Shown: in pieces, positions 38,547 through 39,345 of the stretch
Layout of the letters: every line of letters starts with the position of its first letter
Numbering within the stretch: the stretch's first letter is position 1
DNA from: Verrucomicrobiota bacterium
Lineage (GTDB): Bacteria > Verrucomicrobiota > Kiritimatiellia > JAHIZV01
Length of the DNA: 44,889 bases
Assembly: GCA_018814445.1 (NCBI GenBank)
Contig: JAHIZV010000115.1
Coordinates: 1-44,889 of the forward strand
Direction: 5' to 3'
Made by a program: the position numbers and the translations under genes
The notes under the pieces: generated by a model
Told to the model about the DNA's origin: nothing
The model's database searches: none
The model's input: the letters and a program-made list of their open reading frames with translations, nothing else

Positions 38547-38567
38547 ATAAGCAATACAGGAGGTCGA

Positions 38568-38657
38568 ATGTGTACATCGAACATCGAACATCGAACATCG
38601 AACATCGAACATCGAACATCGAACATCGAACATCAGACATCGACCTCGGCCAGATAG
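38568..38657 (+). other. Short leader frame running through the heptamer array
   Basis: ATG 38568 has an excellent AGGAGG 4 bp upstream. Its frame runs through the repeat array as repeated SNIEHRT and stops at TAG 38655. It is out of frame with the following exported protein, whose own frame has no ATG or GTG start. Either this is a leader peptide or it is the true start of that gene, shifted by repeat number. Confidence 0.5.
38574..38643. repeat. Ten-unit heptamer array between a Shine-Dalgarno/ATG and a signal peptide
   Basis: Ten consecutive 7-bp units ACATCGA: units 1-8 and 10 are perfect and unit 9 reads ACATCAG. Seven is not a multiple of three, so each added or lost unit shifts the frame between ATG 38568 and the downstream coding sequence. 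It is the longest and most regular of the short arrays in the window. Confidence 0.92.
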
Positions 38658-38673
38658 CCGGCTGATCTTTTCT

Positions 38674-39345
38674 TTGCTTCTCATCTTCGCGATCGCGGAG
38701 ATATCCCTTGCCGACGACACCGTTCTCCGCTCTTCGGGCGTCGTCCGCATTGACGAGATTCGCTCTCTGAGTGATCTCGATCTGAGCGAGCGCCTCCCGG
38801 GGGTCGCGGCCAACAACCTGAAGACCAACGTATCCAGAAATTGGGGGCGCTGCACAGCCGTCGAGGGGCGGATTGTTGCGGAAGATGCTTTGAATGGCCC
38901 TCTTACGGCGCAATACACTCTGTTGGTCAACAGCGCGGAGCGCGGCAAGGTGGCGATAGAGGGGCAGATCACGCGCAGTCCGGGACTTGCCGCGCATGAA
39001 GAGTGGAATCCCCGATTGTTCATTCCCGAAGACGTCCACAAGGAGTTGGGAGTCTTCATACTCAATGCAATCCGAATCGAAGTGTCGCGCCATGAAGAAT
39101 CACTCAGCAGGACTGTGAAGTGGATTGGATCGGAAGGCCAATGGCCCGAGCGGACGCCGATGTTGACCAATCGCCTTATGTCCATTCTCGCAAGCGATTG
39201 GGCTGCGGTGAAAGAGTCTGAGAGTGGTGAACTCATCGATGAAACGAAGCCGGGATATGTCAAAGTGTCGCCCGACAAAGCGGCAGACTCTGTCCTGCTT
39301 CATGACATGGATCTGACTCCCTCGTCGGAAGGAGGTCAGCCATGA
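38674..39345 (+). CDS. Exported protein of unknown function at the head of the secreted cluster
   Basis: A protein of at least 223 residues with a signal-like N-terminus (LIFSLLLIFAIAEISLADD) and no family I recognise. The mature part has long hydrophilic strands (NWGRCTAVEGRIVAEDALNG; ITRSPGLAAHEEWNPRLFIP). The start is a problem: in this frame the only start codons after the stop at 38548 are CTG 38662 and TTG 38674, neither with a Shine-Dalgarno sequence, and the signal peptide continues upstream into the repeat. A well-placed ATG at 38568 is one frame off. Deleting one heptamer unit would join it in frame. The stop overlaps the next gene's start (ATGA, 39342-39345). Confidence 0.65.
   Translation: MLLIFAIAEISLADDTVLRSSGVVRIDEIRSLSDLDLSERLPGVAANNLKTNVSRNWGRCTAVEGRIVAEDALNGPLTAQYTLLVNSAERGKVAIEGQITRSPGLAAHEEWNPRLFIPEDVHKELGVFILNAIRIEVSRHEESLSRTVKWIGSEGQWPERTPMLTNRLMSILASDWAAVKESESGELIDETKPGYVKVSPDKAADSVLLHDMDLTPSSEGGQP

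Follow-up and report, generated by a model that had tools for sequence, protein, structure and literature searches.

A heptamer array between start codon and signal peptide of a gene for an exported protein, and the association of such arrays with PF05635 genes

In the window, i.e. the whole stretch of 44,889 nucleotides from a Verrucomicrobiota bacterium that was analyzed here, ten ACATCGA-type units stand between a strong ribosome-binding site and the signal peptide of a putatively exported protein (ORF1). With a probability of roughly 0.6, this array represents a solo end-array from a dispersed ACATCGA family that was inserted or has grown in the leader of ORF1, any switching of the gene being incidental. 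A full member of the family would have a gene of the four-helix-bundle family PF05635 (S23 or 23S rRNA intervening-sequence protein) flanked by a pair of inverted heptamer arrays, each about five units long, and solo arrays and short inverted pairs would be reduced copies of such elements. The association of arrays with PF05635 genes is a stronger finding than the switch in the window and of broader interest. The following features are relevant:

38558-38564, forward strand: Shine-Dalgarno sequence AGGAGGT, a 7-base anti-SD match
38568-38570, forward strand: ATG, likely the original start of ORF1; its frame now stops at TAG 38655-38657
38570-38572, forward strand: GTG start overlapping the ATG, 5 nt from AGGAGGT; its frame stops at TGA 38663-38665
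38574-38643, forward strand: heptamer array of ten ACATCGA units with an exact run of 61 nt, member of the dispersed family
38644-38712, forward strand: segment encoding the signal peptide PRPDSRLIFSLLLIFAIAEISLA in the ORF1 frame, adjoining the 3' end of the array (hydrophobicity computed)
38674-39345, forward strand: ORF1, exported protein of unknown family, called mechanically from TTG; no homologue
39342-43562, forward strand: ORF2, 1406 aa, with FG-GAP repeats, a right-handed beta helix and bacterial TSP3 repeats; own Shine-Dalgarno sequence
43574-44557, forward strand: ORF3, 327 aa, with a leader-like N-terminus, its own Shine-Dalgarno sequence AGGAG and a weak HEAT_2 match below cut-off

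A tandem-repeat scan returned the array with a period of 7, 10.0 copies, 93% match and a score of 126, and by length its exact period-7 run ranks second among 56 sampled arrays. It begins 6 bases past the first base of ATG 38568. The original prediction had placed ten such units between AGGAGG with ATG 38568 and an ORF for a signal peptide, had let the ATG frame end at TAG 38655 and had assigned the exported protein to another frame devoid of ATG and GTG starts. All of this is borne out: the ATG frame comprises 29 codons, and the ORF1 frame is open across the array and contains neither ATG nor GTG between the preceding stop and the signal peptide, TTG 38674 being its sole canonical start. The spacing between AGGAGG (38558-38563) and the ATG, described as ideal, is actually 4 nt and thus slightly short. 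GTG 38570, absent from the prediction, is better spaced and opens a frame of 31 codons. Anti-SD matches of at least 7 bases precede 8 of 334 called genes as opposed to 0 of 332 out-of-frame ATGs.

It is conceivable that the array is 5' untranslated and that TTG 38674 is the start of ORF1, reached perhaps by reinitiation once short ATG- or GTG-frame peptides have been made, both frames stopping 8-17 nt upstream of the only canonical start that the ORF1 frame offers. We regard this as improbable, because no Shine-Dalgarno sequence precedes the TTG, only 6 of 334 genes in the sample start with TTG, and the resulting leader MLLIFAIAEISLA has just 13 residues and lacks a positively charged n-region, such as PRPDSR immediately upstream would provide.

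In the ORF1 frame, the array is followed immediately by PRPDSRLIFSLLLIFAIAEISLA/DD, which has everything of a signal peptide but its start. Deletion of the array in silico fuses ATG-TGT to the textbook signal peptide MCPRPDSRLIFSLLLIFAIAEISLA/DD, such that removal of 70 nt places MCPRPDSRLIFSLLLIFAIAEISLADD behind the strong Shine-Dalgarno sequence AGGAGGT. A match of frames alone would occur by chance in one of three cases; with the Shine-Dalgarno sequence and the n-region added, an original leader that has been interrupted is the simplest interpretation, and most likely the array does interrupt the leader of ORF1. A solo array would have been inserted after codon 2 and before those of the signal peptide, or would have grown there by slippage, behind the original Shine-Dalgarno sequence and ATG of ORF1. 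The array stands single, with no inverted partner nearby and no PF05635 ORF, and adjoins a protein ORF instead of residing inside a 23S rRNA gene. Its ten units compared to the usual five, its atypical ends (the GAACATCGAA ends typical of the family are absent) and the missing partner speak against a lone end-array, and growth from a seed that arose by chance is conceivable.

Computation of the frame for each unit number n revealed that the ATG reads into ORF1 at n = 0, 3, 6, 9 and 12 and the GTG at n = 2, 5, 8 and 11, while n = 1, 4, 7 and 10 are off for both. The assembled number is ten, so that losing or gaining a single unit would turn ORF1 on, via ATG at n = 9 or via GTG at n = 11; the claim that loss of one or gain of two units fuses the ATG in frame therefore agrees with n = 9 and n = 12. 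As ATG 38568 and GTG 38570 both run into stops, ORF1 in its assembled state is expressed weakly or not at all, just as had been supposed. Replication slippage by whole units would bring back translation from the ATG (n a multiple of 3) or the GTG (n = 2 mod 3). An effect on a whole secreted cluster of three genes, as originally envisaged, is overstated: ORF2 has a strong Shine-Dalgarno sequence of its own (AAGGAGGT, 5 nt) and ORF3 has AGGAG, which limits any direct effect to ORF1.

Arrays of the ACATCGA family do change length between relatives. At the orthologous loci L066 and L162 (93% identity), one of the arrays has 5 versus 4 units, a clean difference of 7 bp, and L098 and L109, 96% identical, contain 4 and at least 9 units, the L109 contig ending inside its array. 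Because unit numbers change at these related arrays, switching is possible at the window array as well. Neither an orthologue of ORF1 nor a second assembly in which array length could be compared was present among 346 genomes of the class and 388 of the phylum, and these also yielded no other homologue of ORF1. Nor did any relative have an empty site, i.e. an ORF1 leader free of the array. A Pfam search with ORF1 gave no match, and an AlphaFold model built without homologues (pLDDT 34) was set aside. ORF1 may also be taken for a dying gene that the array has broken for good, or the unit number for an assembly error. The assembly is a draft of 250 contigs, and contigs elsewhere terminate within arrays of this kind. 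Still, 70 nt lie within usual read lengths, ORF1 is free of internal stops and its coding signal of 0.16 bit per codon equals that of its neighbors, and we give this possibility the least credit of those considered.

For the genome of origin, we analyzed a sample of 662 kb (about 16%), made up of stretches chosen partly for their arrays, and complemented it by pattern searches of the whole genome. A three-unit ACATCGA pattern has 20 exact matches genome-wide and 188 with up to three mismatches, compared to 0 for the reversed control, and the array is thus not a product of chance. The 662 kb contain 46 ACATCGA elements on both strands, commonly of 37-38 bp (five units). A single one lies in a gene body and all others at or between gene ends, i.e. 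this is a mainly intergenic, dispersed heptamer repeat family. Eight of the 46 are inverted pairs with arms 10-28 bp apart. The three-unit pattern is found in 20 of 346 genomes of the class and the four-unit pattern in at least 117 stretches from many phyla, among them Verrucomicrobia, Lentisphaerae, Kiritimatiellota, Desulfobacterota, Planctomycetes and Bacteroidetes as well as Pseudidiomarina. A search of the literature found neither ACATCGA nor MFDVRC reported as a repeat, all matches being primers or due to chance. Just upstream of a ferritin-looking gene of the same genome (L028, 7865-7938), a pure ten-unit array of the variant ACACCGA is present, which is a second recent local expansion. 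At L038 (4349-4944), a small gene that was missed by the PF05635 search resides between two inverted pairs of ACATCGA arrays.

The window array has the layout of a simple-sequence contingency locus, with a unit that is not a multiple of three situated between start and ORF body. An evolved phase-variable switch, in which the tract would be kept in the 5' coding region of ORF1 and slippage would toggle the exported protein as in neuO, nevertheless appears unlikely. The anatomy, the frame arithmetic, which has the same form as in neuO (PMC13001214), the purity of the tract, exact over 61 nt, the preserved coding signal of ORF1 and the altered unit numbers in relatives all stand on the side of the original prediction. 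Four further arrays (L015, L025, L026 and L033) precede export or prepilin leaders in frame in the sampled 16%. The unit, however, is genome-wide and mostly intergenic, unlike a locus-specific tract, and ORF2 and ORF3 carry their own Shine-Dalgarno sequences. Enrichment before export leaders is at most weak, with five arrays seen versus 1.8 expected (P = 0.03, or P = 0.10 without the window array) and versus 2.9 expected in a looser test; what had looked striking by eye thus became weak against controls. The arrangement in the window is real and unusual; its action as a switch is possible and would probably be incidental rather than selected. The arrays at L015 (4758-4793) and L033 (4114-4152) are in frame in the N-terminal leaders of prepilin-like genes (GFTLIE and AFTLIE, respectively) in the same genome, and arrays or an inverted pair occur in frame directly before export leaders at L026 (10158-10244), L013 (6721-6799) and L025 (8369-8406).

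Proteins of the S23/IVP type have been known from 23S intervening sequences for decades. At L066 and L162, a PF05635-like gene is flanked by two inverted arrays, and the genome of the window itself contains a PF05635 gene (8417-8725) on C178 (L029) between inverted ACATCGA arrays at 8338-8375 and 8784-8828. We scored a PF05635 gene as bracketed when a period-7 array lay on each side within 180 bp and the two units were reverse-complementary. The set comprised 49 genes from the window's own genome, genomes of the same class and plasmids of cyanobacteria, Riemerella, Azospirillum and Gemmatirosa. By this measure, 24 of the 49 are bracketed in comparison to 0 of 95 shifted controls, a fraction that is rough since the set is non-random and the genomes of the same class were picked for carrying ACATCGA arrays. 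Clear arrays are missing at about half of the genes. Other periods (4-6 and 8-12) gave 0 or 1, and in the array-rich sample of the own genome only two of 471 called genes are bracketed in this manner, one of them being the PF05635 gene itself. The arms have a median length of 32 bp or 4.6 units and each element has its specific unit (AGTAGGG, TCAGGAG, GGGAAAA, AGGGTGT, CCAAAGT and others). Bracketed genes with such units occur among L167, L170, L173, L174, L203-L232 and L233-L248 (24 of 49). Annotated plasmid copies sit among protein genes. On cyanobacterial plasmids, four-helix-bundle genes are located between cas genes (cas6/cas4 and cas10/cmr3; L236, L247 and L248) and between two ribonucleotide reductase genes (L235). 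A weak PF05635 match below the family cut-off was noted at 7567-7698 of the window within a longer open frame.

Outside C178, the pure heptamer runs of the own sample fall into seven classes, including AACATCG (12), AAACCCG (3), AACCATC (2) and AACACCG (2), the last a variant of AACATCG. Out of 1172 possible classes, AACATCG, AAACCCG and AACCATC are the arm units of the genome's own PF05635 elements L174, L170 and L173. The window array belongs to class AACATCG, the arms of the resident L174 element; the sample was selected by that unit, which is not so for AAACCCG and AACCATC. AACCATC has 59 loose matches genome-wide versus 0 in the control. Dispersed copies, some as inverted pairs, also exist for the fourth clear element, L167 (CCAAAGT), for which the reversed control is not clean. 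On three sampled cyanobacterial plasmids, no dispersed copies of arm units were present, and the link between PF05635 elements and solo ends accordingly rests on the genome of the window. The window also contains four AACCATC units at 4578-4605, one of the 59 loose matches of this second dispersed family, the unit being that of the arms of a PF05635 element on C250, and three TTGGACT units at 26046-26066, similar to the CCAAAGT family (arm unit of the C39 element).

Two Nostoc plasmids point at mobility. pNsp_c (L234) and pC052_D (L237) share the same three genes with 93-99% identity, and a PF05635 element is situated at the second junction in one plasmid and at the first in the other, each with an empty site at the reciprocal position. 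Both insertions are at stop-start junctions, one of them immediately after an ATG, which resembles the placement of the window array. The PF05635 element is probably a small mobile element, although to our knowledge no recombinase activity has been assigned to PF05635.

At slightly less than even odds, we propose that PF05635 genes form the core of widespread minimal mobile elements with inverted arrays of some five heptamers as ends, each with its own unit, and that the dispersed heptamers long noted in bacteria originate from solo ends and short inverted pairs, some of which land in leaders of exported proteins and render them switchable. It is a matter of speculation whether recognition of the ends is based on the pentameric XCC0516, a solved relative with five chains (2gsc), reading five heptamers. 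The association ties together two puzzles, the origin of heptamer repeats and the origin and function of S23/IVP elements, and both become testable; the window locus illustrates how reading-frame control of an exported protein can arise by accident from a scattered repeat.

In Coxiella, the S23p ORF of the 23S intervening sequence is preceded by two or three heptamers depending on the strain, and function and origin of such elements have been called unclear (PMC4990558). Like the 23S intervening sequences of Coxiella (PMC4990558) and Leptospira, the elements described here consist of a PF05635-family ORF between inverted repeats, and in Coxiella heptamer number is likewise variable. Unlike these sequences inside 23S rRNA, the annotated plasmid copies of PF05635 have protein genes as neighbors and heptamer arrays as inverted repeats, and the window array comes without ORF or partner arm. 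In neuO of E. coli K1, an AAGACTC heptamer in the 5' coding region is readable when the unit number is divisible by three; the tract varies among sequenced strains and the phenotype is proven, so that here a heptamer after the start is a true switch (PMC13001214). The window array has its tract in the same position and a frame arithmetic identical in form but differs in that no variation is known at its locus and its unit is a genome-wide repeat.

The available excerpts of three papers describe dispersed heptamers: intergenic TAACTGA in Beggiatoaceae and cyanobacteria (PMC4679880), GGGAATC and GGGGATT in Xanthomonas and Nostoc (PMC4692102) and elements of Geobacter metallireducens, class 3 of which has five heptamers and which were read as binding sites of a global regulator (PMC2700814). 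Among longer repeat units, those of seven bases are over-represented in many bacterial genomes, and according to the same excerpts there is no agreed origin for them (PMC4679880, PMC4692102). A link of arrays to four-helix-bundle genes does not appear in these excerpts (PMC4679880, PMC4692102, PMC2700814), which belong to the open-licence literature, and an earlier description elsewhere is possible. The ACATCGA unit is different from those excerpted, while the manner of occurrence is alike: one unit at many mostly intergenic sites with few copies per array, scattered over distant phyla and often near gene ends (PMC4679880, PMC4692102, PMC2700814).
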